Assembly: GCA_030248225.1 (NCBI GenBank)
Contig: JASANE010012360.1
Location: 23,618-87,617 of the forward strand
From: Trileptium ribeirensis
Lineage: Eukaryota > Nematoda > Enoplea > Enoplida > Thoracostomopsidae
Reading direction: 5' to 3'
DNA: 64,000 nucleotides
This document shows positions 10,986-61,800 of the stretch, piece by piece (position 1 is the first letter of the stretch; each line of letters opens with the position of its first letter). A program made the position numbers and the translations under genes. The notes beneath the pieces were generated by a model, which was not told where the DNA came from, did not search any database, and saw only the letters and a list, made by a program, of their open reading frames with translations.

Positions 10986-11636
10986 TCATTTGTTAATAAA
11001 AGATTTGGTGTTATTTTGGACGAGCCTCATAGGAAAACCGTTATTATATAAAGTTTTTTGGATAAACTTGATCTCGCGGTGAATAAGATGGTAGTTTGAG
11101 CCGATTTCAAAGGCTCTATGGAGTTGACAGTCGATTAGACCAGATTTATATTTAGGGAATATAAACGAGTCATATTTCGTTAGCAATCCAGTAAACGTTG
11201 GTTTCCTATATGTGGATGTGTTAATGACACCGTTAGATTTCGTGATCAGTATGTCCAAGAACGGAATGGAGTTATTTTCTGTTGTAACTGTGAACTTGGT
11301 CGAGTCGTGCTGTGCATTCAAATATTCTAAGAATTGTCCAGGTTGACTTGGATTCTCAAATACTACGAAGGTATCATCTACATAGCCACGATAATATAGT
11401 GGCTTTATAGTTGAAGGGCATTGATTAAGCCATTTTTGTTCAGCAAAGCACATGAAGATGTTAGCCAATGCAGGGCCTAATGGAGATCCCATTGCGACAC
11501 CTTCTGTTTGTTGGAAAATAGTGTTGTTAAACATGAAGTGAATATCCTGAACACACTGTCTAATGGCCTCAATCAGATCATTTATAGGTATAGATGGAAT
11601 GAATTGTTTGTTTTTGCGGCTTCCGGATGAATCCAA
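10986..11636 (-). pseudogene. Penelope-type reverse transcriptase, C-terminal part
   Basis: The minus-strand frame has TEGVAMGSPLGPALANIFM, the catalytic box YVDDTFVVF near 11380, then NNSIPFLDILITKSNG and TYRKPTFTGL, in the order of Penelope reverse transcriptases. Upstream of 11,636 the frame is closed by a stop, and the preceding SFDV/SLYTNIP region is only barely recognisable, so the N-terminal fingers are lost. It ends at the TGA at 10986-10988, after which the same frame leads into the GIY-YIG-like domain. Confidence 0.85.
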
Positions 11637-11748
11637 AGTTCGTTAATGCCACATGGAAAGGCACACGACCAAAGCCTCCAATTTGTCCGAAGTTGGAGTC
11701 AGAAATGGATTTTGCGAAGCTAAATGAATCGGAAATTGTGTACGCGTT

Positions 11749-11851: not shown

Positions 11852-12966
11852 CAGGGAGTAACCGGAATTCCGGTTCCGGCGAAAATCGTGTTCCGGTTGC
11901 GGTTCCGGCAAAGGCAAAAACCATACCGGAACCGGAATTCCGGTTTAAAAAGTTTGCTAGAAATTTTCCACGTTTTTTGCTTCATCTGTGATCCAAACAT
12001 ATGTAATATATATTATACATTGATCAAGCTCCAATACAACCAAGCAAAAGAAAAGATTATCTAGCCAGTTTGTCGTGTGAAACGTAAGTAGGGCACATAA
12101 TTTGAGCAGGAATTTTTTTTATAATAACCTTCAGGAGTTTGTTAAATCAAAGCCAGGTCGATGCTTGTAGCAGCTGTTTTACACATCCAGAAGTCTGTGG
12201 GATACGTTTGAATTAAACCGGCCCAACTCGGTAACAGAGTACTTAGGGTATGCTTGGCTAACATAAATTGCGTCAAGCACCCGCCAATGCGCTTGTAAAC
12301 TTGGTAAATCAGTCTAAATTGAAGTAAACTAACGTTATCTGCAACGCAGCTGGAAACTGCTTTCTTGGCAATGAACTGCATTTATTGAAACTGCGCGAGC
12401 ATCATCACAGTGTGTCTCATTTATAGCATTCTGATTATAAAGTTATCATCATTATGGTCTAACTGACGGGCACTGTTTGTCCAACGATAGCCTAAACAGT
12501 GTCTCTGACCACCGATCAGAAAATTACCTTCTATCTATTATTTTTTCGTAGAATCATATAAACCAATAATTTTAAGTTTCCTACAGAAAAACATGCAATA
12601 AACGTATGTGTAGTAACGGGAGGCGACTGGAGACAGAGCGAAAGTGTGTATTCTACGCTCCAAGCTTTGTAAGCACATTCGATTTGACGCAATGGTGTGT
12701 AGTGGAAGACATTTTTTGCTCTGAATGTCCAAAAACCGACATATTTGATCGATAGATAAACATTATTAGCTTCCTCAGTCTTTAAAGTTTCAGAAAGGCA
12801 ATAATACCATCGCAATAGATTAACTTAAATGTAAAAGTTATTTTTAATGCATTTTAAATCCACTATACCTTCATTTCTTCCATCATCTGTTTTACTATAT
12901 ATAAATTTCGAAGACCAGGTTCCTGTTCCGGATCCGGTTTAAATGGACGGTTCCGGTTATTTCCTG
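11852..12966 (+). mobile_element. hAT-type TTCCGG element, copy B
   Basis: Forward copy from the terminus CAGGGAGTAACCGGAATTCC to GGTTATTTCCTG, where one base differs from the perfect TATTCCCTG. It is colinear with copy C throughout. The flanks (ATATATAT before, CTAAGCAA after) do not match, so no target duplication is left. No transposase is encoded. Confidence 0.85.
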
Positions 12967-34800: not shown

Positions 34801-37800
34801 TGTGTTCCGGCAAATCCACATTACTTAGTCATGTGAGGTCTATCGAATTTCAGCTTATGTTTCATAACCCTTGGATGCGAGCGTAAGGCTGGTAGTTACT
34901 ACAATAAGCCTTATAAACAAGCCTTTAATGTTTTTATTTTTACTAACGATGACATCTTATTTACTTTTCTCTTAACGGAGATACTCTGCACCAGTTATAG
35001 ATTATGTTTAAGTATGGTAACGGATTCGACTTTTGCGGATGCATATTTTTTTGAACCTAGTGTGGACATTCAGTTTCAATAAGTGTACAGTGCACGCCAC
35101 AAAAGACTAACGCCTTTCACGAGAGTGCACATCAGCGGGCAGTATTATAACATGCAGCAAGCGAGCATCCACCCAGCAGTAGGCAATTATTAACGATTGT
35201 CGGTCATTCCGGGCAGGTATTGTGATGTTGTCGACCTAGTGACGTATAATATACATGTCGTGTTGAGCTATTCGCATTCGAGATATCGGGAAACCTATGT
35301 AACAGATCCTTACGGATCATTACGAGGTGGATAATCCTGACCACAGCCTAATGGCAAACTTTTATTGAAAACCCATAATCCTGACCACACGATAATGGTC
35401 AACGTTTACGAAAATCCTGACCACACCCCAATGGTCAACATTTTTTCGAACAAAAATAAATCTGACCACAGTGCAATGGTCAACATTTTTTCGACCACCA
35501 AAAAATCCCGTCCACAGTGTAATGGACAACATTTTTCCGAGTACCAAAAATCCTGTTCATAGTGTAATGCTCAACAATTAGTTGAGTTCCCCAATAATCA
35601 TGACCACGTGTATAGTGGCCAACATTTCCGAATTCTGTCACCAGTTTCTCCCCAACCTGGAACCCCGACGGGAATAGTCCAAAAGGGTACGGAACTCACC
35701 GTTGCATTACAATACGTACATTTATATAAGTAGAACCAATTAATCGCTTCTTAGCACAAGCAAATATATATATTGAGTTCCTTTATATACACCTATCGAC
35801 CATGAAAGCCCTGTTGTCACTTCATATGTAGACTGCATAACTGGCACAAACCCTGAACCACGGTATATACGTAAACCAGCACTTGAAACAACTCGCAAGA
35901 TCAATACAGCTATATAAGTACATAATTACAATAAATCAGAGATCATTAGGTACATACATTGATAATTGAAACAGAACTAAAATCAAAGTATATATATGTA
36001 CGTAATCGAAACAACTTCAATAGCATGATATATATCTATATAAAGGTAAACGGAGTAATTAGGTTCAAAGAGTCCCGCTATGTAACTGACTCGCATTTTC
36101 AGTATATCGGCCTGCACCGCCGACATCGTTTCGATCAAGGTGGGTATCGTTATCGCTATTTCAGGGATGGATATTCGTCAAGGAATCGCAACCGTATATA
36201 CAGATATTTATATCCATCTATATACATTGATAGTAGTGCCCCGATGGCACGCCTTAGTATATATATATATACATATTGGCATTTGCATGATTTTTCTATA
36301 GTATCATTGGCCATAAAGGCACCATTGATATATGCTTGAATTACGTACCAATGATATCATTCTTGTTATACTTTTGATGACCATAAAGGCACGTTTTCGA
36401 TATGTATTACCTTGATCGTATCCTATGATTGTGTACCGTTGAAATCAGTGTTGTTGTTCATATGTATTTTTAGGTACACGATCCAGCCGCTTGATTGAGA
36501 TGATCTTTGTTATTCATTTGCATGTATTCATACCGTTCGTTGTTATCATGTGAGGCCATAAAAGCGCCGCCCTTTTGTTACCATTGTATACCGTATTATG
36601 ATCATGTTGCGCTATAATTGTACTTATATTGGATTGATCAGGCCATAAAAGCGCCTGCGGTTTACCATGATTTTATGTATTTTGTTTGTTATATTTTGTT
36701 GCATTGCTGTAATTTTAGGTTGGAAGTACGACTGTTTGAGTGTAACATATTTGGGATAATTTTAGGAGAAATTTTAGGGATTTTTATGTACGCAAAAGTG
36801 ATCTTTTATAGGAGCAGAACGTGAGTATGACGAGCTCTTGCCATACCGGAAGTGTCGAGAATTTTAGGACGGTACGACTCCCCGATACATATAGGAATTG
36901 CCCTACCCCGAGTGGTAGGACTGCAAAGTTTATTCGGAATCATCGTAGGAAAGACTGGCCGTAACGGACACCCGTCACGACCGTCCTCACGAATGAGGAC
37001 CACAAAAATATGGCTGTTCGCTTGAAAGCGAACAGCAATTGAGAGAATTCCCCGAAAATTATAAGAGTAAACTGAAAGTATAATATTTACCAGTGCTCGC
37101 TACACTGGTAATTTGTATAACATTACGAAATATTGTCTACCAGCGTTCAATCTCGCTGGTTGAGATAAGAGACGAAAATGGAAATATAACAAATTTAGAA
37201 ACCGAAAATGTCGGCTCCGGTCCATAACTCCGGAACCGTTGGGAATTTCAAAATTGAGTGCTTAACATTCCTTATAGAGAATTTGACGGTCTTTCGAATG
37301 AGGCCGGTTTCGTGGAGATCCGACCCGGATCCAAGCACTTAGGGACAAATTAGTATATAAGTAAGCCGGCAGAATACAATTAGTCAATTAAGTCAACGAA
37401 TATTGGTCATAAAACTATCTACAAGGTATCCTTATAATCCCCAGACCCGAGGCTTCAATTTAAGCCCGGACCGGTCCCACTGCGCCCACTTTTTGTACCC
37501 ATATGAAAGTTTCAGAAATAACGCCCCGACACCACTCATTGGATTCCCCGTATTTGAGACCAACCCAATAATATATAAAACACCCCAGAAAAGTGCACCC
37601 CGAAGCCAGGGGAACCGTTTAAGCACCCTACCCGGAGAAAAATTTGGCATGGACCCTCCCCCCAAGAGTCTATTCCCCCCTGTAGACCGAAAACGGTCCT
37701 GTTACATATCATTTAAATCGGCCGGACTTGCTGAGCCCGAATCGAAACCTTGTTTGGCACTTTGGCCACCTCCGAGGGAAGGGTACCCTCTCCTTTCGCC

Positions 37801-40800
37801 TGTGGTTCTTCTTTGTTTACTTAAGCGCATTTCCTGTGAATTCTGTGTCCCAATTCAAGACCACTAGCACGCAGTTTCCTCTAATGTAAACATCACGTCT
37901 TTTGATACCAAATTGTGAACGTTGATACCGGCATAATACGAATTTAATTCTGTACTGGACTAGAGTGTTTGCGCTTCCACACACAAGCCGTAGCAGCTCC
38001 ACTTAATACGCTAGCTGAGTCAATATTTTCGTTAATAGTTTGGTCTCTTGGTGCTAATTTAATATAAATTTGGTACGCAGCTTGCTGGAGTTTCTTATCA
38101 GTAAGACGTGGTTTTAGACGATTAAGCACACATCAAGCTACCATTACTTTATATAAAGTTTATTTACGGATATGAAGTTTCGAATTTAGTGTAAACTGTA
38201 TGTGCTACTAGAAACTTCCAGAAACTTGTAGTGGTCGCGAGCACGGTTTATATAACATTTATAGCATATCGTTTAGCTGGACGTTAATGTTTGTATTAAT
38301 ATGAAGCGGACACTCGGTAGTGTTGTTTGTCAGACTGAATTTTATAGTGGTCCAATATAAAGTTTGTATTATGCTATTTAATTGGCGGCGAACTTCATAT
38401 AAAACGCATCTGACTTGAAGAGTTTATACTGCAGGGGACACCGAGATTGGTTTGTTTGTTTAATATAGAGTGATAGTCTGATTCAATACGACGGTTGTAT
38501 CCAGAGGTTTAGAACTTTGCGTTACATTCATAGTTTAACTGCTGAATTTGTTAGAAAGTTTCTGGAAAGTTCGTGGTAAGCTTAGGAGTTTATATAAATT
38601 TAGTATAAACAAAGTCGTAAATTATAAGAAGCATATAAATTTATATAACATTTTATATAAAATCGGACGGAAAATTTCTTAAAATATGCTTGGAATGTGT
38701 CCGATAAGAATGTTGATTTAGTTCAATAATATTAGATCAGAAATCGGACTAAAAGTGCTGAGCCAGCACTTTAACCGCCGCGAATTTCAAAATTTCAAAT
38801 TTCAAAAATCCGAGTATAAAAGCAGAACTGCACAAACAAGATAGCGTTCAGTATGACTTCGAAAGCGCAGAGTTCGGTCGTTTTGCAGACCGGCTCTGGC
38901 GCTCGCTTTTGTTAATGTGTTTTCGTTTTTGGCTCGACATTGGCTTTTGCGTTGGATCGTGCGTACGGATGGGCGATGGATGCTGGAACAAAGACCCGAC
39001 CGCTCTAAGTGTGGACAGGGAGGGATACCTGTAGAACATCGTAGCATTGAAACCAGTTAGGCTAAGTACGTTTGTAGTCGCCACTAGGGTACAGTAGAAA
39101 AACGTATCGATTGGAAGTAACGTCAAGTCTCCATGGACTCCCTGTCCACACTTGATTTTTACATGATAGCCTGTCCGCCCTAGCTCGTCCCGCCGACCCG
39201 TAGTCTCGGATAGCCGCTCGAATGATTGGACTAGACACCCGAAGTCATGCTGGACCTCCCTCGGTCAATCAGTTAGGATACAAACAAAGGCGACACCCGC
39301 GTTGAGATTCATTTTACATGATTCCCTGAGTCGAGTTAGGAGTTAGTAAAAGTTTCCCTGAGCTGACCGAGGTTAAACAAACCTTTCACATGAAAGCCTT
39401 GTGATTAAACAAGACGTTTCGATTAGTACTCCGAATCATCCACGGTCATACACGTACGAGCATGATTTGTTTAGGGTTTGCCAAAGTGGTTTTCAAGATT
39501 TCAAGTTACGATTTTCTCTGGACGAGAGTCGGTCAAGCTGTTCTGATTCTTCGTTGATTGGAGTTATTTGGCATTTGTGGATCGTTTTACGTGAACAAAA
39601 CCTGATTAAGCTTCATTAATAAGTTAATAGTGCTGTAGGCAACGTTGCAAGTCAAAACTTTATACCGACATGATGTCCCGTGAGCGTGACGGCTCGCCCC
39701 TGCTAAAATAGGAAATTCGGTTTATCTAGGGAACTGTTCCAGGAATTAAGTTGAAATCTCTAGGAGGATCCGAGCTATCGATTTAGCGATTAAAACGTTT
39801 AAATACTACATCGGGAACATAAACCCGAGGACCCTAAAGGGGCGTGTTCCCAACAAAATGTGAAAATTTAATTATCTTAGGACCTACTCCAGGAACTTTA
39901 CTCCAATTTTGGCAGTTTCTTCGTAGCAATGTCTATTGACGAATAGGAGTCTAAAACATGTCGGTTTCGAGTCGGAAACCGAAACCCGACGGCCTTGAAT
40001 TGGCCTAACCCCACTAAAAATGTGAAACTAAGATTAAAAGTAAAATATTTTAAGAACCTCTCCAGGAATTTCGCTAAAACTTTCGCTGTTTCTTCGTAGG
40101 GATGTCCGCTATTGGACACCGCTCTGAAACCCAACCTTACCGGGTTGGAATCACAAACCCGATGGCCTAGAAGTGGCCTGACCTTGTCAAAATTGTGAAT
40201 ACAGGCTTAGAATTTAAATATTTAAGGATTCCCTCCAGGAATCTTGGTGAAACTTTAGCTGCTTCTTTGTAAGTATGTCTACTTTCGGATATTATCACCG
40301 AATTCAACTTTATCATGTCGGAACCACAAACCCGACGGCCCGATAGTGATCCGTTTCTACCCAAACTTTACACGTTAATAAATCGATATTCGCTCCAGGA
40401 AATTTAATGATCTTCCTCGTATATATAGAGGCCCTTTCGGCCTTTCGTTTAAGCTATTGAGCCCGGCAAAGCCGTGGCCCGTTCAAAAGTTATAGGCTAC
40501 CTAAGTCCGACCCGCACAACCGTTGCTCGGATTGCAACTTAAATTTTACAAATTAGACTATTTTCGCAAGTCTGTTTTGGTCTTGCTTTTCCACACATTT
40601 TGGTTCGTCAAGGGAAAATATTGTCTTCCCTAGTGTTGATAAATTACATTACCAACGAAAATGCTTTAAATTTCAAGGTTATCGAAGTCGCCAAATGCGA
40701 CATCGAATCGATCGGGCCTTAGCCCGAGCGACCATTTTTTGTGAGGACCGTTGACCCGGTCCTAGAAAATCGATAGGTAGGATTAAGCCCAGCCATTGTG

Positions 40801-43800: not shown

Positions 43801-46800
43801 AGCAAGTTACCTCAACAACAGTTGCAGTTTGGAAGCCTTCGGAAATCTTGTGTCATCAGATAACCACTTGGCTGTACTGGATCGTGTGTCGACGCAGTAA
43901 GAATTATAGATTAACCTTTTATAGTTAAATATAAATAAATATTATCACCTAGCCCCGAGATAGGGCGCCAGTTCTTCGGCGATTCGTCGTTTTTATTTCG
44001 TCAGGTCTTTGGCGTATCGTGAAGGATCGCGATTAGTCGATTCCGTCAAGTTCGCCAAGCTACTTTATTGTGAAGGCAATATATATCAGAGAATACCCGT
44101 AACCGGAATTTACCGGAACCAGCAACCGGAACTGTCCATTTACACAGAATCCGAACCTGGTCTTCTAAACTTATATATAGTAAAACAGATGAAGGAAGAG
44201 TTGAAGGTACTGTTGATTTAAAATGTAATAAAAAATAAATTGTACGTTACACTTAATAATGTTTACTTATTGTTTATCTAACAGCTAAGCGGTTCTAAAC
44301 ATTCCATACTCTGTTGTATATATATATATATCAGTTTGGATCGGTTCAATTCTAAAGTATACCGCAAGTCTATGAATGGGTAAAATAGCTGCTACAAGCA
44401 TCCTCCTATCTTTGTTTTGTTAAACTCCTGCAGGGTCGAGATAAAAAATTGCTATTGAAATTAAGTGTCTTTCGCTTGAGTCCACTTTACGGGCGTGCAC
44501 CTGGATTGTTCTTTTGTCAAGTCAGTTCACGATCGTAAAAGCGATCGCAATTTTTCCTTCTGTACTCGTACATGATTTGCCATGTAGCAACGCGTAAACG
44601 CTGTTCGTGGTCACTTTTTAGATTAAGCATCGCATTTTCCTGACCGCGTACATGTGAAGACGCTATTAGCAATGACGTTTTTCATGTATACTGTAATACA
44701 CAAATACACCGTGAACAGCGCTGTCTGATTCAGAATGTTTTTTTGCTGAACGCATACAAACTTGCGAAATGGACAAATGTGCGGGAACGCAAAATCCATT
44801 CGGACATTGCTGAGCACATGTTGGCGTTCACAAAAATATGAATACCAATGGCAGAAGTGTGTACGTGAATTTCTGCGTGAATCAAGTCATGATTTGGACA
44901 AAACAACAAGCTTGGTGTACGCACTGAAAAGTTCTGTTACATTAAGTGTACCTTGGTGTGCATTTGAAAGCTCTGTTACACTAAGTAGACTTTCAGACAC
45001 AGACTCACGCACTGCTTACTTTTCACAGAGCAATTTGCTAAGGTCATATTTTCTTTTGTTTGGTTGTGCAACAGTTTTATTGTTCCACATTTCCTCAACA
45101 TCTGTGGCTTCGCCATCTGACAAAGCACTGAATCGCGTTGAAAGAGCGACATAATAGCGTAAGAGTGCTGCTGGATCCTTCAGCTGTTCGACGTCAGGAC
45201 CAAGGTAGCGGCGGCGGAAGTGCTCTGGGTGCAATCGCGCACGGATTTTTGAGACGACCATTGCATTGTCGGTCTGAAGAGCATTGCCCCAATAGCTACC
45301 ACAGTCAAGAACTGACGATGTCCGTTTCTTGTTGATCAACACATGGTTTAGCTTGTAATACTATTTTCCATAATGGTGCTCTCCACGCGCAAGTATGTCG
45401 TTTTTTCCTTAAATATGGAGCTGGAAATGCAGAACGACTGATATTGTGCCTCAGCAATTGAAGAGCTTAGTTCTAGAACATGCTAAGTGCCATATTTTTC
45501 AAAATTGAGTTAGTGACACCGTTGAGTTGAAATTTTCACCCTCTTTTCAATTCCGTAACATGCTAAGCGCTGCGCCAACTGGTTAGTGTGATATAGAAAG
45601 CTAGTTGATGTTAAGTGCACTTAATCAGCCATTTTCGCGAGCGCAACATGCAAAGTACACACATCACTTCTTAGCATGTTGTGGTTGTGTGGAAGTAAAA
45701 CCATATCATGCCAAGTGTGCACTTAGCATGTTGCAATAATTACTGCGATGTACTTTGCATATTGTGCCAAGTGCTACAAACGAGTATACGAGATGTTGTA
45801 GCTGATTTGGCTACCACAAGAAATAATCCACTTTTCTGTATTTTTAGGACAATGGCTGTCGTGGACCGGACGTTGCGCCAATCAAATGTCGTGATACTCC
45901 GAAATATTAATAAATAACACCCTTACTAACTTTTAAACAACTAAAATACCCTAAATATAATAACTATATGCAAAGCTATTTGCCGTCATTCTGAATGCTT
46001 TTTGGAACATTTCTAAATTTAAATTAAGCTTGGAACCAAAATGGGCAAATCAAAATTTAACAATTTTGTTACTAAATTTTTAGTTAAAGTCCTATCTGTA
46101 CCTACCAGTATGCGACCTATCTGTACATATCTGTATGCGGTGTAGTGTTAACAATAGCAAATGAGCCACTGTTTCTGTCGTGTGCATGGAAGAGTAAACA
46201 ACACCGCATTGATCGAATAGTTTAAAATCGACTAGTATTATCCAACAGTACTGAACCAAGAGTAAGATGCTGACCGAATAGCATTGTTTTTGTACAAACA
46301 TTTCTGATTTCGTGATTCATATAAGTTTATCTGACAATGTCGATTTAAAGCAGTACTTCGATAAAACAATATATAAGAATTCTGTTGATAGAGCAAGATG
46401 TACGCAACATACTTTAACGCCATTTGTTCTCTCAATTCCTCCAACCATTGTAGCTTTGCATATTTTTAGATTTATTTTAAATTTAATTATTAAATAAATC
46501 AAACTAAATAAGTACTAAAATATAAGTAGCAAAATAAGGTAGCAAATATATATACATACTAAATATATAATAATACCTAAATGTTCAAAATTGACGATTA
46601 CGTTTGGGTCTTATGGCAAAAAACGTGGTGGCCAGCAGTAGTCTCGACCCAGGAAGGATTTCGTGGACGAAAACAACGTGCCGATGATGTTTGCGTATAC
46701 TTCTTTGGGGAGGACAACAGAGCCTTTGTCCGTCCTAACAACATGATTGCTTTTCATGATAACAATGCAGCGTGGATTGTAAAGTCAAAGAAAGCCAAAT

Positions 46801-49800
46801 TTGTGGACGCACTGGAACACTGTATTTTGTATTCTGCTACTCATGGAAGACTAGAGGCGGTTGCCGTAGTCAACAAGTTTTTATTTTGTCGCGACAATAT
46901 TCATAAAGCGATTTTGGACGCACTTGCTCAGGCAGATCCTTATCTACATCGACATTGTGAATCCGTGGCGAACGCGGTTATGTCTGAAATATTAGACATT
47001 TTGGAACATTCTGTTACTGAATGCCTAACAGCGAGCGATAGATTGAACTTTTCCTCGTCGGTACAAATGCCAGATAACCTATCGAAAGCATCACCGCTCT
47101 CAAAGCGCCGTGGTATCCCTCCAGCGCAGGAAATAATACGCAGAGAATTGAAACAGGAGGCGGCTAGAAAGAAAAAACTGTTGGCGATTTGTAACGATGA
47201 AGAAGGTCACATCTCCGACGATAGCGTCGATAGCCACCACCAGGATCCCGATTTTCAACCAATGGACGAGTCCTTTAACAGTACTGACAGTGAATCGGCC
47301 ACTGTTCCTGAAAGGTTACCACAACAGGAATTGCCTGAATTGCGTATAGCGACAGCGCCGGCGATCATCGATAATACATCCAAGCACCCACATATACCAA
47401 ATAACAGCAGCCCGCTTCCTGGACCTAGTTCACAGAATGATGAGCAACATGGAGGCCGATTTCACAACAAATCACGCAAAAGAACACGAAACCCTACTCA
47501 GTGGAAGAAGAGTTTGCGCAAGGCAGCTTATCATGCCGGCATCGCGCATACGAATAGTGTGAAAATGCGTGTTGAAGCAAAAAATCCAGCAGTTGGAATA
47601 AATATATGTGGTAATAAAGAGTGTCGTTATAAATGCAATTCAACGATTAAGGAAGATGCGCGCCGAGCAACGTTCAATAATTTTTACAGCAAGAAAGATC
47701 GCGCTGCAAAAGACGCATTTCTGGAAGCCTGTCTTAAAAGGCGTGAAAAACCAATACGACGAAAGAAAGGGGCAAGTAAAGACAAAACTTGTTCGTTTCA
47801 GTATCAAATCAATATCAATGGTACACAGCACTCAGTATGTCAAACAGCTCTCTGCAAATTGCACGGGATTAGCAAAATGCGTCTAGAGCGTATCCGTGAG
47901 TTAATATGTAACCCCAATCGCGACCGATTGAATAACCTGACTGCTGACGACATTCCTCGGCCCCGTGCGCATAATCAGTTGCCGGATGAGCTAAAGCAAG
48001 CCGTCATTGAGCATATTTCCAGTTTCCCTTCTGAAAGTAGCCATTATTCCCGCTACAAAAACCCTAATCGTCGCTACTTGAGCAGCGAATTGTCAATAGC
48101 AGAAATGTATGGCGCATTCAATCAGGAACGACTGAAAGAAAACAAGCCAACGGTTAAGGAATCGTACTACCGTCACATTTTCGTTACCGAGTTTAATCTA
48201 GGCTTTGGTAGTCCCCGAAGTGACACTTGTGAAGTCTGCGACATAAGGGCCCCGGGATGGGAGCAGCATAAAATCGAGGCAAACTTGGCACTAAATGTCA
48301 TGTCTAGCGACCGCACTATGTGCAGGGAACAAGATGGTTTCCTTTTTATTACTTTTGATCTCCAAAAAACTTTACCTCTCCCTCGACTTACTACCAATAA
48401 AGCTTTTTATTTAAGACAACTGTGGTTTTATAATTTCGGGGTTCACGCCATTTCAAAAAGTTGTTCTGAGGGCAAAGGATACATGTACAGTTGGACTGAA
48501 AACCAACATGGAAAAGGTAGTAATGAAGTTGGCTCGTGCGTATTAGCGTTCAGCGAGGAACCCGGTTTCGAAGATTGTAAGCATCTTATTGCTTGGTCGG
48601 ACTCCTGTGGGGGTCAAAACAAAAATTTCTTCATACTGACACTCTGGATTTATTTAGTTAAAACAGAACGCTTCGCTGTCATTGACCACAAGTTTCCGGT
48701 GGTCGGTCATTCATACCTTGACAGCGACCGCGACTTTGGCCACGTGGAAAAGAAAATTAGACGTTGCGAAAATATTTATTCAGCGGAACAATATAGATCT
48801 ATTATTCGAGAAGCGCAGGTGCGAAATCCGTTTCAAGTGACCAATGTCGCCGGCAGCGTAATTGACCTAAAGCAGCTTTCAAGTGCGATGGGACTGTATC
48901 GACGTATGAAGGGGAGAAACAAAGAAAAGGTGCCGTTCAAGGACATCAGGTGGCTCCGTATCGATCATACCGATTACTATAAATACCGTTTGTCATTGGA
49001 TGACAATGAAGATTGGAAAATCGTAGATACGCTAGGGACCAGAACTGGTGCCGTTCCTGATGTAAATGTATCTAAATATCGCATCGCTGCTCACCGAAAA
49101 ATAAAGCCACAAAAGTGGAGAGACATTCAACATCAAATTAAGTTTGTTCGCCGTATCGATAAACCGTTCTACGAGTCCCTTGAACCAGAGGAAGACGAAA
49201 ATAGTAATGACGATGCCTGACTAGACGTGGTTATTTGGAAAACAGTTAAGTGTTAAATTTTACTAAATTATGCTTTTAATACAGGTGGTATTGTGTTAGT
49301 GTGTACCATGAATATTGGTTTTGTTTGTAGTGGTGGTTATTTTGTTTATCACAGGTAATATATACGCTCTTTGGAATTTAACATGTTCTTAGCATATTGT
49401 GATCTTACCTGAACTGACCATTTCTAGTTCTCAAACATGCTAAGTGATTGTGGTAGCTTGCTATCGTAAAAAGCTAAACAATTGTGCTATTATAATGAAA
49501 GTAGCAGTGATGCAACACCTTTAGCTATATTCTTAGCCATAAAAAATGTGGATACTCCAAGTTATGAAAAAGACTGCAATAAAAATCACTCTATGATATT
49601 TATCTCGAAAGTGACAAATGAGCACTTAGCATGTTTCGAAACTAAGGTCTTCAATTCATCGGCTACCGTTGTGGCTGTGTTTTTTCAAACAATACCGACC
49701 GATGATGTGCTCTTCGCCATGTATTGTTTGACCTATTTGGGCATTTGGATCCCCGCGTATCAGCACAGTATAGCGTTCGTTTGAATAGCCAATTTCCTCA

Positions 49801-52800
49801 GTAAGATCTCCGAAAAACGATTATTTCTCGTTATTATCGTATTGCTCTGTTGGAGCGTGGGCAGAGATAATTGTAAGATCAACTGGCTTCGTACGTAGTC
49901 TGGCGGATGCTATCCGTGGGCTGATAGCCTTTCAAGATAGAATTTGTTCTCGAACGCTGCTGTATAGCGCCATGGCTACTCCTTGTTTTCCACATTTCTC
50001 CGCATCTGACTATAGAAGATCGTAAGTTTCTCCGTGATAACTTATACTTATTGTACCGGAATGCGCGAGCCAACTTTCAGAGAGCGCCGCAATTTATATA
50101 TCACGCTTCAGTAGGGAGTACAAAGAATTTATTTGTAGCCCTCCTTCAACAAAGTCCTTATATTTCAAGATGGTACGTCCTACATTTGTTTCGATAGTTT
50201 AAGCTGTTTTGTCACCATAAGTCATTTTTCACACCGCCGGCGACAAAACGGTGCGCGTTCTTTACCTAGGATATGGTATCATGGCTTTGATTCGACATAT
50301 TACTTTCCACGGAGAATTTCGGAAGTTCTGCGAAAATTTCAAAGCCCTCAACCTGCGGAGAAACTAGACTATTGTCACCGACTATCCCGATAACCGGCTT
50401 TGCAGCCACCGCATTTGGTCTTTGGCATTCCTGCTTGCTTGATGGCATATCGTGGCATTTTGTACGAGGAGACGGATGGGAGCGCCCTTTACCCCGACCA
50501 GGGCCTTGACGTTGCCAATGACTCCGATTTTAGCTGGAGGACGCATTTCTGTCCCATGCTGGGTGTTAACTTTGAGAGTACTGCCGCCATATATATGTAA
50601 TATATACACAATGATCAAGTTCCACCACAACCAAACAAAATAAAAGATTATATCAGCAAATTGCAGTCTGAAACGTTAGTAAGACATATAATTTCAGTAG
50701 GAATTCTTTATCTTAACACTGCAGTAGTTTGTTAACAAAGCAAAGCCAGCTTGATGCTTGTAGCAGCTATTTTACACATTCAGAAGTATAGAATTAAACC
50801 GGCCTAACTCGGCAATAGAGTATGGATTATTTAGAAGTACTTAGCTGTAAGCTTGGCTAACCCGCCAGTGCACTTGTAAATTTTGTAAATCAGTCTACAT
50901 TGAAGTAATGTAACATATCCGCAACGCAGCCGGGAACTGCGTTCTTGCCAACGAACTGTATTTATTAAAACTGGGCGACCAGTATAACAGTTTGTCTCAT
51001 TTATAGCATTCTGATCAGAAAGCTACCATCATTTTCATCCAGCTGGCGGGCACTGGTTGCCCACCACTAGCCTAAACAATGTATCTGACCGCTGATCAGA
51101 AAATTATATTATACCTTCTTTTATTTTCATTTAGAACCATATCCTATAGAATAACGTGCAAAAACCATATGTGTTGTAAAGAGAGCCAATTGCAGAAAGA
51201 GCGAAAGTGTTTAGTCTACGCTGTAGTTGCAAGCATCTTTAGTTACAACAGTGCGCATTCAGTTGGATGTCATTTGCGCAAGGCTGTATAGTGGAAGTTT
51301 TTTTGCCCTGGGAGTTCAAAAACCTACATTGATTGATAAATAAACCTTTTAGACTTCATCAGTCTCTTCAAAGTTCCAGAGAGGCAACAATACCATTGCA
51401 ATACGTTAAGTTTAGTGTAAAAGTCATTTTTAATAGATTTTAAATCCATTATACACATCGTGGGACTTTAAACAAGCTCAGGGATCTGAGACTAGAATGA
51501 GGTCAGAGTCTCGAAAGCTAAGCGTAGATTAGCTGCACACGCTCTATTTCCCTCGCTTTGCGAGTTATAGTTATGAATGTTGGCATGTTTCGTTGCTGCT
51601 TCGTTCTGGGACTTAAACATTTTTAGCTGGATAAATACCCCTTTTAAGACCAACACAAGGATAGGTTTGATATACACCGTAGCATACGCGACACGGCCAA
51701 ATGAATATGAGAGGAGCCCATCTTGTAATAAGCATTCTATTCATATCTTTTCGCAAGATAATTCAATTTAACCCAGTTGGGATCTAGGTGGGCAAGATAA
51801 GGCGGAAAATCGTGTTTTACATCAGAAAGTACTATGTAGGCCATAAAAGTACATAATGTATAATGTGGTTGAGGGTTGTTTGAAACAAACATGATTATGG
51901 CATGTCTTCGATTAAGTTTTAATGAAGTAGGCTATAAAAGTAGATAATGTATAATGTGGTTGAGGGTTTTTTGAAACAAACCGCAAGGGTTGTTTGAAAC
52001 AAACAGGATTATGACATGTCTTCGATAAACTTTTAAAGAGTGGTGTGCGAAATTGATTTGTAAAATTCGCGGGAGGCACAAGTAGTTTTGTCAGGGCAGT
52101 TTATTAAAGTGCAAACATTATTCAGGTCAAAATTGTCAGTCTTTGTCTTGCGAGCACCTATCGAGTATCCGTAGTCGCATTTAGCTTAAACTATTTAGTG
52201 TGCGCACAACTATTAGTATATTGCTGCGTAATACAAATTTTAACGGATTTTCTATCCTGACTTATGTTAAACAATAACTATATAATAAGGTTATTACGAC
52301 AAGGCTGCTTTGTGGCTTTATTGCCTTCTCGAGACTACCAAAGTTACACCAGGGTACCACTGAGTAGAGTAGGAAGCTCGCCTCTCCACATGACCGAAAT
52401 TTTATTTGGGGGCTTTGAGCTGGGGTCCAACCTGTAGTGGGCGAGGGAGCGGTAAATTCCGGGGGAATCTCAGCCCAGGTAAGTCGGAGAAAAGCCGGGT
52501 CACCCAGCACAATAGAGGTGATTATAGTTGCAATTTTTCGTGTTTTAATGCTGTTACAACACTTTTATCGTTGTTTATGCTGCATATTTATCATTTTCTT
52601 GTTGAAAAGACGTATTTACACGGCAATATTATTAATTATTTAGTCTCACAGGAGGGCACATGGGTATGAACTGGGGGGTGGAAACTCTATCTGGGAGCAT
52701 GAATTAGGGCAAGCTTGGGGCAAATCGCTATATTGGTCTGCCTACTTATTTATAGAAGCCAGGCGTTGTAGAATTCCCCGAATCAATCACGTGTTAAACG

Positions 52801-55800
52801 TGTGAACTATTAACACTTTTCTTCGAAGTGTATAACATAACAAACTTCACCTTACTGGACGTTTGTAGAATAAACTTACTGCTGCAAAAAGTGAAAAGTT
52901 CATTCAGAAATGTAGGGATGACCAGTAACTATCTGGACCTGTTCGTGCATCGTGTTCACTTAATAGCTGGTTTCTTATATAACTGCTATAACATATCGAT
53001 TACCGCGTTATTATACCTACCTTTGTTCAGGGACGGTTGTCTGAAATGTTATTACATTACAGCTTAGGAACATATAAAGACGATAGTTCCGATACCACCC
53101 ATTTGGTTAATTGTGTACAAGTTCAAAAGGTAACTTTGTAGAAGTGGCACACGGTCTTTGTTATTTGCTCGCTATATTTCTGGCCAAAATTTGTGAAAAC
53201 CTAGACTATCGTTTGCTGAAAAGTTGCCTCTGCTATGGCATACAAATAATTAGGTAATAATGAATTAGAAAATTCTATCTTGTATTTGTTAGTTATCAAG
53301 TAAACGGTAATTCATGCAATATTATAGATTTAAAACAATCATATGACTGTTATATTTATCAAGAAATTGTACAATCTGTATTGTTCACAACCATGTTAGA
53401 TGTTAACTGTATAAATAATGTTAAGCCGCAAACACGCGAACAAAGTCGCTGTAAAGTGTTTTACTTGTTTTAGGGAATCTTCTGCTATGCCAAACAACAT
53501 AAAAAATTCCGTGAATGTGCCTAGCAGTAACACATCGCAGCAGCAATATCGTTTTCAACAGTTACAACCACGAACACTGCAACATGGTGCGGTGTATCGT
53601 CAGCCACCGCCTGGATCTCGTACAAAAGCGGACTTACACGGTACATCGGTTATCGTGCCTCAGCCAAATGTGCCTTGGCAACAGCCGTCGATGTTGATGG
53701 TTCAGCAACAACAAAATGTTACAATGAATCAGCAAGATCAACAACAGCTGATGTCGTTGAATGGTAGTAATTCACAACACCATCAGCTGGGGCAACACCA
53801 GGAGACTGGAAATCCATTAGCTGCAGGTCAGATGTCTCACCAAACACTGGTTCAGCCAACAGCATCTTCGCAACAATATTGTTCGCTAAGTGCAAGCTCT
53901 AGCTCACCCGAGTGTATGATAGTCTGTGAGACCGCCAACATCACTGATACCTCTAGAACGATCAAAAACAATAGCAAATCTATTTCCTACAACACTGCTT
54001 CCAACGTAACGGTGTCGTCTGTACATAACTTCCCTCAACAGGCAAATAAACTGGTATCGCTGGGCGATGCAGGTAATTGCTCAGCTCCTTCTAATGTGAC
54101 GGTTACTGATGGAGCTGGTACATGTCACCAGTGGTCTTGTTCCGTCAGTACAGCACAGCATACTGTTAATCCGTGTAGTAGCAGCATACAGTCGTCTTTA
54201 CCAGTGGTTACTGATTGTTATTCTGGAAGCAACCTAATTTCAGGGATAGGTGTTGTTTCGGCTGCTTCGGGTCAGAATATCGAGCAGTGTTTTATTTCAC
54301 CTAACGATTTTGCTGTTGGCTCAGATAATAATTGTGATTTCTTTGATGATGCTATTGCTGGAGCAAACAAAATAATTGCGTCAGAAAATGTTAACAATAA
54401 TATAAGAAATTGTACTACGGATTTAGCTCGGAATTTGAATCAACAACATACTAGTCTCTCTACAATATTGCAGCAGCATGCTCATGACAGTGGATTTTCG
54501 AGGAAGAACGTAAATTTTAGTGCAATTGTCACATCTTCGCCATCGAACAGCTGGAGTGGAAACGGTTTTGCCACACCAGTTGGCTCATCTTGTCGTGTCC
54601 GAAATGACAGAAAGTCCTCATTACCGCCGGGAAGCGCTAATGCTGAACTTACCGATGGAACGGTAGCAACCGGAGGTGTCAGGCGGGCTTTCCTATCAGG
54701 AACGCCGGTTTGTTCTGCTAGCAAGAAAGTGCACGTAGTTGCGTCAACTGACAAAACCAGCGTGACATCCATGTCCTCACAATCTTTGACTCTGTATGAT
54801 GGCACTGTTCGCAGAAAGACTATATCTCGTCCTAAGGCGGGTCGGCGATCTCAGCCACATGCCGTTGATGCTGCGATCCCATATGTAGAGTCTGTAGCGG
54901 GACGTGATCCGTATGCTGTCGGTGTTTGCGAGGAGACAGATAAAGCTCGTGATGAATCCAAAACGACTGATGTCTGCAGAGATGATGCTATTCACCGTCA
55001 TAATTTTAACCAAGCGGATTGCGGCGGAAACGCCTTATCGGTGAGAACTCTTCAACAGCCAAATGCGGACGAACCGATGGATAATGGTGCATCAGAAAAT
55101 GCTTGTCTTGGCTCTGGCGCTGCTGGCCTTTCATCAGCTTCTGTCGAGTCATCGTCTAAATCTGTAAATCGATGCGGCGGCGATGATCGCAGAATTTCAG
55201 AAGGACAAAAAAATATGTGCCGGCCATCATGTTTTCAAATTAAACATGAGGGTGAGTGTTACGATATTATATTTTTCGCGGTGTTCTTAGTCCAGTATCT
55301 GTTATAGCTAGTTATGTATGTGTGATGTTAACATCGTTTGAAGAAAGTCGTTGGATGTCCTTCCGGTAACTGAAAGGTGGTGAAACTGTGCTTGACTCTT
55401 GTTGAGTTTTGAAAAGTAGCGAGCAGAGATGTTTCGTTATAAATATAGCGGTCAACCGTCCAAAATTTTTTTTGTTAGTGTCTGATTAACTAATAAAATA
55501 TATCGCTGGATTGACGGATTTTTACAAAATTTTTTATTCGATTCGTAGGTACTAAAATGGAATTTGTTTGGCTATTCGGAACAACCGGCATTTTAAGTTT
55601 TAAATTGTTTTCAGCAGTGTTGGTTGTAGTGATGCAACCTGATTAAATTTTTCGGTCCGCACTGGTACGAACCGACCAAGGCACATTTAATTTGACTCAT
55701 GGACATGAAAAAATTTTGTCCTACCACGTACTAAGTTCATTGCGGACCAGTTTAAAGTCTGTTTTTTCTTACATTGGCTTTCTCTTTTGCTTATGTTATA

Positions 55801-58800
55801 GCAGTAATTAGTAACTATGCATCAAAAATAATTGGTGAATTTTTTCGTAACTCTGGTTACTAACTAGATTACAGAGTACAGTATATTTTGGGAACAGGCG
55901 GACGAAAATATTTTTTCACATTTTGGAAAAATATTCCGATCAGATTTCGTTAGCTAATATTGAAACAGTCGACCAAGTATACTAACCAAATACTAGATAT
56001 TGAAGATAACCGTGGACATGGTAGTATCGAGCTATCAAAATTTCTGGGACTGAAATTCTTTATTTTAGGTACCAGTGCTGAAATTTCTACTTTAGCAGTA
56101 CAACATATTCATTCTTACTCATGCATGGACGGGATGTCACTACCCTTATTCCCTTAACAATTTTATTCACAGAATGCTCTATGCACTATCAACGTGTATG
56201 CTCGCGTATATCAGAGGCAGGACGACATGTGCTCACCCAGAAATCCAGCTGAAGGGACATGTCCTTGACGCTCAGTGTGCTTTATTTAGTAATGGGCTTT
56301 TTCGCCGTAGGCATGAGGATTTATGGTAGTTTTTGCCATAGGTAGCCCCCATCTGTTTATTTCGGCTTGCATTCCCCCAAATGTGTTTTATCTTAGCTTG
56401 CCCATTCCGGGTGGTTTCCCAATGCCTATAGTTAAAAGTTTAGGTGTCGAGCGTAGCTGCACATTTTTTCTTAAAGAGTATTTAATTAGGCCATTATTGT
56501 ACATGTTGCTGCATAAGTAATCTAGTAAACTTCATAGAGAGTTATAACTCAAATTAAGCGCTATTATTGTAGAATCGGGTATATCGTCTGAAGCTGAAAC
56601 TAATTCACTTAGTGGTCCAAGGCAAGCCTTTACGAATACTTTAAACGCCGGTAATGACGCATCAAAGTCACCTACATCAACGTTCCCTCAACATTGCGAA
56701 ATCCAGCATGGCGAGCCGCGGGGTCTTAGCGCTCCAAATGTTGACTCAACATTTGGTAGCACTTCGAAGTCACAATCGCCGGCGGCGCCGCAAAATAAAA
56801 GAAAGCGCCCATTGACTGCGATAAGCGACGATGACACCGGTACTCACGATGATAGTTTTACTAAACAGAATCTTTTAACGAACATTGCTAGTCAAGAACG
56901 GGAGTTGCATGAATATGGGCGCGGTGCAAGCAATTGCCGCACTACGGAGGATGGTGTTAAATCCCGATGTGTTACTGCTGCATCAGCGAAGACAATACCT
57001 GTAATCGCATCCTCTACCAGTTGTGTCGCATTGAACAGTCAAAGGAGCGGTGACATGAATAGCGAAGCTACTGCAACACCGTTCTTGCCAACAACAATGA
57101 GCGACTCTGAATCGGAGGAAGACGGGCTGTCGGCCACAGCTTTTCTTTTAGCTGCGGATGCTGAAAATAGCCCAAACAACGTCCATGCAATGTTAAATTC
57201 CGAAATGGTGGAACACACGTCGACTGTATTTGAACCTATTGTTTCAACACCAAATATGCTGATTTCTAATAAGAATAGTCAAGCCTCATCCGGAAAAAAT
57301 GGTACAAGGTCTGCAAAGGAGGACGCTTTGTTATCTAATGCACCCGAGCAGTTGAGCCCGGAAGATCATGGTTCCGGGCATGCTGAAATTAAAGAGAGTG
57401 CTGCCAGCAGTATTTCAGTATTGCACCCAGGCCATAACATATCTTCCTGTGACACACAGTCTGATATTACAGAAAACAGCCTTCCTACTGACACTAGCAA
57501 ACCTAGCGACACAACTGCTGTATATAATAATCCGGGTCTAGCCGGAATTACGAAAGTATCAGAGCTTACTACCGAAGCGAACATCGAGCAATCTGGCAGC
57601 GCTGAAGATGACGAAGATGATAGCGAGTGTCATGCTGTCGATATTATGGACGATTGTAATGACGACATTGACGCAAATAGTAAAAACAATGACGATGACG
57701 ATAATGATAGTGGCTGTGCGTCGCAAGGGCAAACTCAAACTGGTGCCCCAAGCATTACCAGTAATGCAGGTGGTAGTTCGTCTACCACTACCAGTGGCTC
57801 TAACGGAAATAGTAGTGGTAGTAACGGGAGCCAATCTGCTAATGATAGTTGTTTGGCACAGAATTGTGCAGTGGATAGTGACGATACGGTTGTCGATAGC
57901 AGACAGACCAGTATGCCAGTACTATGTTTTTCCGACGCTGCCATTCCTGAGCCAACAAACAGCCCGGCTTTCGTAGAATCAGCCACAAATAATATCGACA
58001 ATAATGAAAAATATATAGCTCATAAGATGGTGAATAACGTTGCTACTGGATTGCTTAATACGAATATAATTACTGACACGGAAAAGTTGTTGCAACAGTC
58101 CCAAGCGAATTTCACATCCATAATTGATGAAAGTATCCGGTCAATTTTAGGCGGTGAGGTATTCTCGAATATCGACAATCGCTCAGACACGAATTTTAAG
58201 CAACCCTCGTGTAAATCAAGTGTGGCATCATGTGTCACTGCGGCTTCGGAGATAGCTAGCCTTATACAAGACAACCTTTTTTCGGTTATTGACCAATGCA
58301 CTAAGCCAATAATTTCGTGTAATGTAGAAATGTCTTTAGATGCCGCCAGCAAATTTACTGTGGCTTCGGCTGCTGCCAGTACATGTTGCACTACGTGTGA
58401 TGTAATTAATTGTTCTGTCACTTCACCGTCAGTATTTCATAGCCTTGCACAACCCGTGACTGCAGCTGATCGTCGTGCTTCAACATTAAGTAATTGCTTT
58501 AGGCCAGTAACGCAACGACTCGCGCTCATTCCATTTATGCTGACGTCAGCTGATGCTGATGCAGCAGCAGCCGCACTCACAATTGATAGTCAGTTGCCAC
58601 GAATGGTTCAGGCTTCCAACAATATCCTACAGAATTTATTCCTTAAGACGTCGAGTTGTGGCGGTAAATCAATAGTGATGTCTGCGAGTGAAGCAACACA
58701 GCCGTCAACTCAAGCGCAAGTATCTCCTGGTGCTGCCTCTTACACCGTCTCAGATACTAGCAAAATAAATGTTTCGTTAGAAGTGAGACCGCCTAATTTG

Positions 58801-61800
58801 AAAATATTCCAAGCGTCTGCAGTTCAGCGGCAAGGTAACAAGAACTTGTGTAATCCGTCTACTTTGGTTGCTGCCACAAATGCTCAAATAACCTTAGGAA
58901 CATCCAGTGACAGTAAATCTGCTACCGCCGAGAACATCATTCCGGAACGTATTTTGCCAAAGAAAAATGCGGTTACCAATGTAAGCTTCTCAGCGCTTAC
59001 CCCAACAAACACATATTTCTTGAATGAAAGAGAGTTTAATAAAGAAAAATCGCCAACATCGCTTGATTCGCACAACAGTGTACAGTCACCAGCAGGATTT
59101 GTAGCGTAAGTTTGTAATTCGTATTACTACCTTATTAGTCTTAACATTAATGTAAACAATTTTTTCCATAACTATCTGCAATAATTGGCTTGTAAAAAAA
59201 TTTTAAAGGCTTGTAATTTAACAATTTTGTTCGATTGCTTGACTCTCCCGACATGTTTCACGAGTTAGAGCCTATTATGGATTTATATTTAATGTGACTA
59301 AAGCATCGTCCGTTAATTTAACATAGCATTTGTGCCATCTGCTCACGTACTATCTGCAGTAATTTTGTTCACACGGGCACAATTTATTTCTTCTGCTCAA
59401 ATTTCAGAGAAAATTAAGTTGCATGGAATTTTTGGTGTTTGCTTCATCCATCTGGTCATGTGCTAGCTACAGTAAGCAGCAGTAATTTTGTTGATGCGGA
59501 TACTGTTATTGCTTGTGTTCAAATTTTAGAGAAACAGAATTTGCATGTTATTTTGTTATTTTTTCAAATCGCATCGCTAATAGTCTGAGCTAAAGTAAAT
59601 AATATAATTTTTTCGCATGTGGTCTTTAATCGGTAACAAGCCTATTGTAACAAACTTTGTTCACTTGGCTGTTTAGGACATCCATACAGGACACATTTTA
59701 ATTTTTTCTCTGCGTTATATCAATACATACTATAATTTCTATCAACTTTTGATGTGATCACAGCAGCTGATTTAGGCTGCTGATATTTTGTTAGAGTCAA
59801 TTGTATCTATTAGACTTTAGTTATGAATACAGCCTTTCGCTCTGTGTCGCTATGCAGCTGTTTACCAGGATATTCGAGCTAAGTTGGACCAAATGTTTAT
59901 AAGTCATGGATGATAACAACAAAACTTACATAGATATCGACTTTGGAAAGGCTGATCGTATAATTAATACTGCAAATCACTTTAAGACGACTCGACTGGT
60001 ATTAAATAACTTTATTTAATACCAAGTTACAGGAGACAAAATCAAAATTCGCACTTGAAAAGGTATTGTTTAAAATCTGTTCGCAATCATGGGGACATTT
60101 AAAGTGATGAGCATGCCCTCATTTGGGATTCGTGGCACTTGACCAGTGGTAAAACATTCAGACATGCATGCGCCATTTCATTTATGTTATTGGTGTTATG
60201 TCAATAACTTCTGTTTTTTGGGCAACTACTTATATCACAGCTAAGGCTACATTACTTGCCACACTTGACCGTTGCTCGCTCGCAACTTGCACGTAGGAAA
60301 ATAAAACTTCATATTTAAATTTAGTTGACGGAGGCAAGACGAGCCACCGAAGGTGGCGAGTCGCAGCCGGAGGCGTACATTTAACTTTATATATATCAAT
60401 ATACTAGACGCAAAATTTCAATTTTCTCTGTGACTTTTTTTTTGTTTGTCACAGACAGGTCTGCAGGTTGAACGCCTGGGCCGATTTTAGAAATTTTTTT
60501 TCTTCGTGTTGCATATTCTCTTGCGGAGTGCACTTTCATTGAGCACTTTTTTCTACGAAAATTGCTTTGTACTCAAAATTAAGCAAATGTTGTTCAAACT
60601 TAGGGATTTTTGCCATTTTTTCAGCTTTTTCACCGCATCTCGACAACCGTTCGTGCTATTTCGGCGATTTTTTACATAAAATATATTTTCACGTTTTCTA
60701 AACAGCTGTATATAGCTGATTGACGTATTTCATCTCTTTCCTTAAAAATTAAGCAAATTCTCTCAAAATTGACTTAGGGAAACCTAAGTTCATCATATCT
60801 CGACAACCGTTCGTGCTATCTCGGTCATTTTTTGACATAACATGTACCTTCACGTTTTCTAAAAGACTGTATACGAGTGATCTACTTACCTTTATAAATT
60901 CTCTTAAAATTAAGCAAAGTCTCTTAAAAATGAGTTAAAAATTATTAAGTGTGTTATTGACGGAGGCAAGACGAGCCACCGAAGGTGGCGAGTCGCAGCC
61001 GGAGCAGTCGCAGTCGAACATTATTTTACATAATAAATTCAGTTTCTTAAAATTGTTTTCATGGTGAAAATTCGAAGATGAGGTGTAGCTACTCGATTTA
61101 AATGAGTATGTTACTTTTAAACTGTTACCAAAAATGTTAGAAATTCCACAAGCTGTATGCACTATTCACGCCGTTGTTAACCACCATGCCTCCGTCACCC
61201 ACGTTTACGTGTTACTAGTAGTTAGTTTGTTTGTTGCTCGCTCGCGACAGTCAGTTGTGGCGAGTACTGTATCTTCGAAAGTTGTGAATTGTTTGAATGC
61301 TAATCGAAAATTGTTGGAGAACTGTTTTTGCGGCATTGGAGAAAATTTTTTATGTTCGAGATGTGTCGATTTTTGTTCTCTTTTAATGTGTTCGGAGTTA
61401 CTTGAATCTAAGCTTCATTTCAGGCATTTACATGCAGTACCCGACATACATGATCGCTGCTCGATAGCCGTTCCTTCAATGCTGGGTTAATAAGACAGTA
61501 ATTGTTACATTAGTATATTTTAGCAACCGATAGTTTTTTTTTAATTTGTGGCCGATATAGAACTATAATACTTTGAGTTATACAGGGCTAAACTTGTATA
61601 GTCTGATTTTGTATTGTTGTTTATTTTAGTAATCAAGACGATGGATTTAGTACCGGCCGGTTTTCAGTATCGCCTGCTTCTTCTCGTTTCGATGGATTTT
61701 CTGATTTTGAGGAAGAATTAGCAAGCATTCCTAGGAGTGGTGTTAATATGCGCGCTGGCGATATTGTCTTTTCGTCATCGACCACAACTTGTTATGTCAC

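Follow-up and report, generated by a model that had tools for sequence, protein, structure and literature searches.

A recently mobile DNA transposon of Trileptium ribeirensis whose DUF7869 transposase carries an N-terminal PWWP-family domain

The way in which mobile elements select chromatin has long been a question, and one locus in the 64-kb stretch of DNA analyzed here (the window) raises it directly. A first-pass annotation made from the letters alone had read this locus as an undescribed-looking DNA transposon lying in an intron of a host gene, with a transposase whose N-terminal PWWP domain might read H3K36 methylation. We therefore asked what kind of element this is, to which transposases it is related, and what a PWWP domain may do for it.

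Ends, copies and insertion site

The element is defined by the following features (coordinates here and below are positions within the window; TIR, terminal inverted repeat; TSD, target-site duplication):

45060..50056, + strand: older host repeat split by the transposon, flanks as far as compared (the transposon itself is 45460-49652)
45456..45459, no strand: left TSD copy, AATT (a single AATT in empty-site alignments)
45460..49652, + strand: whole transposon, 4193 bp (supported by its TIRs and TSD, by related empty sites and by other copies that end alike)
45460..45490, + strand: left TIR, 31 bp, 26/31 complementary to the right end
45477..45763, + strand: left subterminal AACATGCTAAGT cluster, 7 motifs (≤2 mismatches) in both orientations
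46581..49220, + strand: transposase open reading frame (ORF), 879 aa in one reading frame (ORF list; also intact in copy L015)
49376..49635, + strand: right subterminal AACATGCTAAGT cluster, 4 motifs
49622..49652, − strand: right TIR, 31 bp, 26/31 complementary to the left end
49653..49656, no strand: right TSD copy, AATT (a single AATT in empty-site alignments)

The coordinates, the 879-codon ORF, its motifs, the 31-bp TIRs and the subterminal motifs of the first-pass annotation were all recovered as it had described them. The TIRs match at 26 positions, and 2000 random pairs of window segments with the same spacing gave 23 at most. When up to two mismatches are allowed, AACATGCTAAGT occurs 14 times in the window, with 11 of the 14 matches within the transposon ends, and we presume that these subterminal motifs are binding sites of the transposase. 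A stop codon immediately precedes the first codon of the transposase ORF.

Six copies with both ends are found in the genome, the window copy included, with a divergence of 0.06-0.57%. All six are flanked by perfect 4-bp TSDs composed only of A and T (AATT, AAAT and ATAT among the copies), and their TIRs are complementary at 25 or 26 of 31 positions. In the empty-site alignments, paralogues of the flanks continue across the joined flanks with one AATT, which confirms the boundary of the transposon. Other copies and empty sites were what the first-pass annotation had proposed to search for, taking the absence of any second copy as fatal to its reading; both were found, the copies lying elsewhere with TSDs of their own, and together with the TIRs and the AATT duplication they bear out its identification of a DNA transposon. 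The transposon is recently mobile. Its transposase frame is intact in L015, and L016 has a stop-free frame of 879 codons, while among the copies examined the frames of L009, L010, L011, L012, L013 and L014 are broken, that of L012 just inside the PWWP domain.

Paralogue alignments place the window insertion inside an older repeat family. RING-like and B-box-like segments upstream of the transposon and long ORFs downstream, all of them same-strand candidates for TRIM-like exons, make the intronic position proposed earlier a possible one.

The catalytic core and its relatives

Three features of the transposase, all on the + strand, describe its core:

48222..48269: DTCxxC...H motif, residues 548-563 (conservation; probable zinc site)
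48339..48761: predicted RNase H-like core, residues 587-727, with D593, D674 and D716 (or E723) (AF2, VIA-align, conservation)
48480..48875: match to DUF7869 (PF25273), residues 634-765 (Pfam 42.9 bits, cut-off 26)

Structure prediction and a domain search of the core, both suggested by the first-pass annotation, gave an RNase H-like model and the DUF7869 match. The core is predicted to adopt an RNase H/integrase-like DDE/D fold with three acids in place, as judged from the AF2 model, VIA-align and conservation; Foldseek by itself found nothing in the PDB at E ≤0.001. Retroviral integrases and the Mos1 transposase share 7-13% identity with it, a likeness that would be one of fold only, and the VIA-align list leaves room for families that it does not contain. 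The earlier catalytic triad stands for D593 and D674 but is doubtful for E723, as 101 of 104 alignment rows have D716 and 93 have E723, making D716 the likelier third acid. In the same rows D548 and C550 are present in 104 of 104, C553 in 103 of 104, and H563 is nearly invariant, a pattern that suggests a probable zinc site.

A core of ~580 residues is common to the DUF7869 proteins, the best match being 42% identical across 70% of the query, and their conserved acids and cysteines are those of the window transposase. The named relatives come from beetles, moths, butterflies, bugs and one sea anemone. The relatives alignment (A2) holds 103 of 105 database relatives (P0072 and P0091 are absent), and the larger relatives tree used 100 of 104 rows. 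Viral contigs gave 74 pattern matches and no confirmed relative, and prokaryote genome contigs gave seven matches to one motif pattern, again with no confirmed relative. Intact copies of the element suggest a candidate activity for this domain of unknown function, namely that of a DDE/D transposase.

Whether this transposase belongs to a named superfamily, with the PWWP domain as the only novelty, is a question on which we lean slightly to the negative. The best candidate is Sola, described as having a DDD transposase, a 4-bp TSD and TIRs of 11-1124 bp (PMC10741241). The 4-bp TSD of all six both-ended copies, the 31-bp TIR, which is within that range, and the candidate D593/D674/D716 triad, with D716 conserved above E723, are all compatible with this, a likeness by description only. 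Sola is, however, reported from bacteria (PMC10741241), whereas the single motif pattern searched led to no confirmed prokaryote relative, and a literature search found no paper on DUF7869, hence no link to a named superfamily. No report of a PWWP-bearing transposase was found among the papers listed by further literature searches, in keeping with the initial impression of an undescribed element, and a search on the GQNKN motif gave nothing related by title. Kolobok and piggyBac duplicate TTAA (PMC5199201, PMC9587614), unlike the TSD sequences listed above. In the hAT/P/MuDR/Kolobok/Dada group a C/DxxH motif is described between the second D and the last acid (PMC9587614); it is absent between D674 and D716, and D718-H721 fits by letters if E723 is the last acid, but relatives do not retain H721 and have Q, K, R, A or other residues in its place.

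The PWWP domain and its occurrence on other mobile elements

The N-terminal domain maps as follows:

46596..46826, + strand: PWWP domain, residues 6-82 (Pfam PF00855; alignments to the NSD2 and DNMT3B PWWP domains)

The PWWP domain claimed for the transposase was upheld by Pfam, PF00855 scoring 34.3 bits with the whole protein (E-value 3.5e-8) and 41 bits with residues 1-90 alone, above the curated cut-off of 25.6. Modelled without an alignment, residues 1-66 of the full model and 1-70 of the piece alone have pLDDT <50, and residues 1-160 folded alone have a mean pLDDT of 45, so that these models do not confirm the PWWP fold, a barrel of five strands with helices. A comparison of residues 1-300 with 5.8 billion proteins, which finds exact-word sharers only, gave 2186 candidates and none at E 1e-3. 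No PWWP domain is detectable in 175 DUF7869 relatives retrieved from the protein database, in which respect they differ from the window transposase; members of this family thus seem to manage without one.

The methyl-lysine cage is formed by Y18, W21 and F44 in HDGF2 (PMC3119473) and by M15, Y18, W21 and F44 in PSIP1 (PMC3663649). Alignment to NSD2 and DNMT3B places K14 at the position of PSIP1 Y18, with W17 and F41 retained, and the transposase domain therefore appears to lack the three-aromatic cage. Basic residues (R28, R30, K31 and R33) occupy the loop after the WWP motif, with others at 68-74.

Of 150 scored PWWP matches in the genome, each of the best 30 is located on a mobile-element gene or next to one: 20 accompany LTR-retrotransposon-type integrases and 10 accompany DUF7869 transposases. 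Copy numbers of PWWP-bearing elements are minimum values, and from the zero matches in 14 control genomes no conclusion is drawn. Direct fusions of PWWP to integrating enzymes of two unrelated kinds thus coexist in one genome and suggest repeated borrowing of this domain by mobile elements that are not related to each other. The first cage position is Y or F in all 20 integrase-class domains and Y in three of the 10 readable transposase-class domains, window included. In a small tree of 43 rows (39 hand-chosen relatives, the window and three PWWP loci), the PWWP-bearing transposases are split between two distant clades; grouping by PWWP label does not exceed what chance gives (49 of 500 shuffles scored as low), and L056 and L070 join P0100 and P0104 at a fork supported 88/82 only. 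On balance we incline to the view that PWWP was recruited independently, N-terminally by DUF7869 DDE/D transposases of two or more distant clades and C-terminally by LTR-retrotransposon-type integrases, as a recurrent tethering strategy in which the retrotransposon branch keeps the cage and the transposase branch often loses it. Chromoviruses, which belong to Ty3/Gypsy and bear a chromodomain at the C-terminus of the integrase (PMC3605345), likewise fuse a chromatin reader to an integrating enzyme, and their layout resembles that of the PWWP-integrase elements of this genome; the reader there is a chromodomain rather than PWWP, and the window element is a DNA transposon with its reader at the N-terminus.

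Possible roles of the PWWP domain

We regard the element as probably a cut-and-paste DNA transposon, recently mobile, whose DUF7869 DDE/D transposase uses PWWP as a chromatin tether. The transposase would bind both the TIRs and the subterminal motif repeats, cut the element out and insert it at 4-bp A/T-only sites, and the N-terminal PWWP domain may serve as a built-in tether that takes the transposase-DNA complex to nucleosomes. Given K14 in the cage, we rate general nucleosome or DNA binding and H3K36me reading as equally likely. A transposase with such a built-in nucleosome-binding module would interest builders of integration tools. With near-identical young copies and two enzyme classes in one genome, the role of PWWP is testable through insertion profiles of full-cage versus partial-cage families.

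A somewhat unlikely alternative is that the domain has no effect on site choice and acts as a nuclear-retention or DNA-binding module that helps to locate the TIRs or to remain on chromatin. The basic residues and weak cage are consistent with this, as is the unspecific nucleosome binding of which PSIP1 PWWP is capable when ionic strength is low (PMC3663649), but the integrases of the same genome carry PWWP domains with aromatic cage residues, which favours a chromatin role.

Recognition of H3K36 methylation by the domain, with insertion thereby directed to the bodies of transcribed genes, is in our view unlikely. The model for this is LEDGF/p75 (PSIP1), a PWWP protein that tethers HIV integrase to chromatin and directs HIV-1 to active genes (PMC11054761, PMC3663649); membership of the PWWP family, the retained W17 and F41, and the position between same-strand TRIM-like exon candidates agree with it. 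LEDGF/p75 is, however, a separate host protein with an M15/Y18/W21/F44 cage, and mutation of its M15 or Y18 lowers its specificity for H3K36me3 more than its affinity for nucleosomes (PMC3663649). K14 instead of the first cage aromatic, the scarcity of Y there among transposase-class as against integrase-class domains, and the insertion into an old repeat all count against such targeting, so that the original interpretation survives as a recently mobile DNA transposon with a PWWP-family domain and is weakened in its H3K36-reader part.

Aligned counts for L016 and the window copy show the coding part to be less changed than the noncoding part, the coding changes being 9 synonymous and 15 nonsynonymous (alone not significant, p 0.07). 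Although this and the intact ORF would suit a domesticated host gene, a PWWP-transposase fusion among old transposon remnants, that reading is highly improbable and was dropped for the window copy, since its TIRs and TSD are intact, copies elsewhere have TSDs of their own and paralogous empty sites exist.

A PWWP-bearing transposon and its copies

The first-pass annotation had described a DNA transposon with an intact 879-codon open reading frame (ORF), 31-bp terminal inverted repeats (TIRs) and dense 12-bp motifs at its ends, all of which hold:

45460-49652: element, 4193 bp, with 31-bp TIRs and AATT on either side
46581-49220: transposase ORF, 879 codons, its start immediately 3′ of a stop codon

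The TIRs are complementary at 26 of 31 positions, against a best of 23 among 2000 random pairs of places, and 11 of the 14 occurrences of the 12-bp motif AACATGCTAAGT in the window (allowing up to two mismatches) lie inside the two ends of the element. Pfam matches to PWWP at residues 6-82 (3.5e-8) and to DUF7869 at residues 634-765 (5.4e-11), both above cut-off, agree with the annotated PWWP domain on a transposon protein; NCBIfam gave no match to the transposase.

A search for further copies of the proposed transposon was productive. The first 741 bp have 14 matches in the 687 Mb genome including the window, eight of which span at least 739 bases, and 13 were found for the 3′ part, again with the window included. 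Six copies possess both ends (the window, L009, L010, L012, L014 and L015), each with its own perfect 4-bp target duplication (AATT in four, AAAT and ATAT in the others). Divergence among these six and L011 is 0.06-0.57%, and L010 has an internal deletion of ~0.8 kb. L015 retains the intact 879-aa ORF with three amino-acid differences, while the frames of L009-L014 are broken, some perhaps through assembly errors; contig ends cut L011, L013, L016 and L029. L016 differs from the full-length copies by 1.7-2.1% and carries a stop-free frame of 879 codons that shifts by one codon near residue 60 and ends in a different tail. It differs from the window at 24 of 2633 coding sites versus 44 of 1294 noncoding sites (p 7e-8); the coding changes, 9 synonymous and 15 nonsynonymous, are not significant alone (p 0.07). 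The element is mobile now or was until recently.

Solo left ends (L018, L019 and L020) and solo right ends (L030, L031, L032 and L033) of 44-223 bp also occur, with A/T tetramers outside and the opposite end not found within the stretch examined around each; they may be products of aborted repair, unusual derivatives or breaks in the assembly. At L019 (C13744:26500-36400) two left ends with an identical outer flank lie ~7.4 kb apart in opposite orientation, which may be an inverted duplication or an assembly artefact.

Beyond the predicted DDE/D fold and the target duplication, we infer a mechanism in which the transposase would bind the TIRs and subterminal motifs, cut, and then insert the element at A/T tetramers, with the PWWP domain acting as a chromatin tether. 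Sola elements encode a DDD transposase, duplicate 4 bp of target and have TIRs of 11-1124 bp (PMC10741241); our element matches the duplication length and the TIR size, may match the DDD acids, and is not filed as Sola. TTAA-specific superfamilies were rejected because the duplications are AATT, AAAT and ATAT. As regards the C/DxxH motif, DxxH precedes E723 in the window protein, its H not being conserved.

PWWP domains on other mobile elements

A Pfam PWWP search gave 777 first-look candidates in the genome, of which 150 were scored, all above cut-off, and neighboring genes were examined for the best 30 of these (L042-L071). In all 30 the PWWP lies on or beside mobile-element genes: 20 share their locus with an LTR-retrotransposon-type integrase (phmmer), nine match a DUF7869-core profile (built from 103 relatives, the window left out), and L066 (C14157) has a PF25273 (DUF7869) match 2.5 kb downstream of the PWWP on the same strand.

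The integrase class comprises L043, L058, L061 and 17 others, 20 loci in all, with G000:C16487, C4322 and C7181 among them. End-to-end Pfam scans of L043, L058 and L061 found RT_RNaseH, Integrase_H2C2, rve and then PWWP in a single frame, the rve match of L061 being just under cut-off; in these three the PWWP closes the pol frame at its C-terminus. Such elements would be a PWWP counterpart of chromoviruses.

In the transposase class, PWWP and the DUF7869 core share one open frame in L044 (C8546; E 3.5e-123), L070 (C16214) and L056 (C17210), and occupy nearby frames on the same strand in the remaining profile-matching loci. The three single frames are divergent DUF7869 transposases with the PWWP N-terminal. 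The genome has 148 DUF7869 matches, and at least 12 of the 150 PWWP matches are followed by one on the same strand, no more than 4 kb away, as drawn from 15 same-contig pairs chosen by eye. The window's family scores lower and falls outside the 150, but its DUF7869 is among the 148; the PWWPs most similar to its own (L064, L050, L065 and L066) are all of the transposase class.

Residues 1-160 gave a best E of 0.076 against 175 relatives from the protein database, and PF00855 (PWWP) was absent from the precomputed domains of database relatives among the matches listed (all but 49 of 169 in one set). On a tree of 43 rows chosen by hand, the window and L044 cluster with the database relative P0001 (support 98/91), and L056 and L070 (99/97) are placed elsewhere, adjoining P0100 and P0104 (88/82), also database relatives. 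The PWWP label needs three changes, three being forced by well-supported branches, and no bootstrap tree reduces it to one; 49 of 500 label shuffles were as low as observed. These changes could be one gain plus losses, and N-terminal exons may be missing from the database ORFs.

The literature searched yielded no mention of DUF7869 and, in titles and opening abstracts among the matches listed (subscription papers and Repbase being outside this scope), no report of a PWWP-bearing transposase or retrotransposon; PMC3978060 concerns a PWWP gene that was hit by a transposon insertion.

The aromatic cage

The annotation had extended its PWWP claim to reading of H3K36 methylation; the domain is supported by Pfam, but that step is weak for this protein. 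In alignments to NSD2 and DNMT3B the first cage aromatic is replaced by K14, with W17 and F41 retained. The PSIP1 cage consists of M15, Y18, W21 and F44, and mutation of M15 or Y18 lowers preference for H3K36me3 nucleosomes, with affinity much less affected (PMC3663649). For the window protein, K14 and these mutant data weaken the step from PWWP to H3K36 methylation reading. Two human PWWP domains with a single cage aromatic are named as exceptions (PMC3119473). The window PWWP likely binds nucleosomes; AF2 gave no usable model of residues 1-70.

The first cage position is Y or F in all 20 integrase-class PWWPs, whereas it is Y in three of the ten readable transposase-class domains, window counted (L063 not read); the difference gives a Fisher p of 6e-5, copies within a class not being independent. 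L044 and L052 are near-duplicates.

First cage residue of transposase-class PWWP domains
Window: K
L044, L052: Q
L056, L065: H
L066: N
L070: S
L050, L062, L064: Y

Insertion site and surrounding repeats

Counting its own position, the left flank matches 43 places in the genome, as the element was inserted into an older repeat whose copies are mostly 69-81% alike. Empty sites for the annotated element were found among these paralogues: when the flanks are joined through one AATT, the alignment to each of the seven compared (L035-L041) spans the junction, and in the alignments inspected the junction is ungapped in L036, L037 and L040, with one T missing in L038. These sites support the element's ends and 4-bp duplication, and the flank paralogues indicate an insertion nested in a repeat. 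For the intronic position claimed earlier, the relevant features are:

16723: RING-like segment, pattern match; Pfam RING matches below cut-off
23892: B-box-like segment, pattern match
53415-59109, + strand: long ORFs

On these features the element plausibly, though not demonstrably, lies within an intron of a TRIM-like gene.

Other repeats lie in the window. At 10380-11642 (-) a reverse transcriptase precedes a weak GIY-YIG match (E 0.0045, under cut-off), an arrangement that we take to resemble a Penelope-like element, and a reverse transcriptase fragment at 5783-6355 (+; RVT_1, 4.7e-15) probably derives from a non-LTR element. A repeat family up to 97% alike occurs in both orientations at 9340-10272, 11994-12958, 19087-20069 and 50592-51454, and short tandem arrays occupy 35331-35552 (period ~45 bp) and 39863-40279 (~173 bp).
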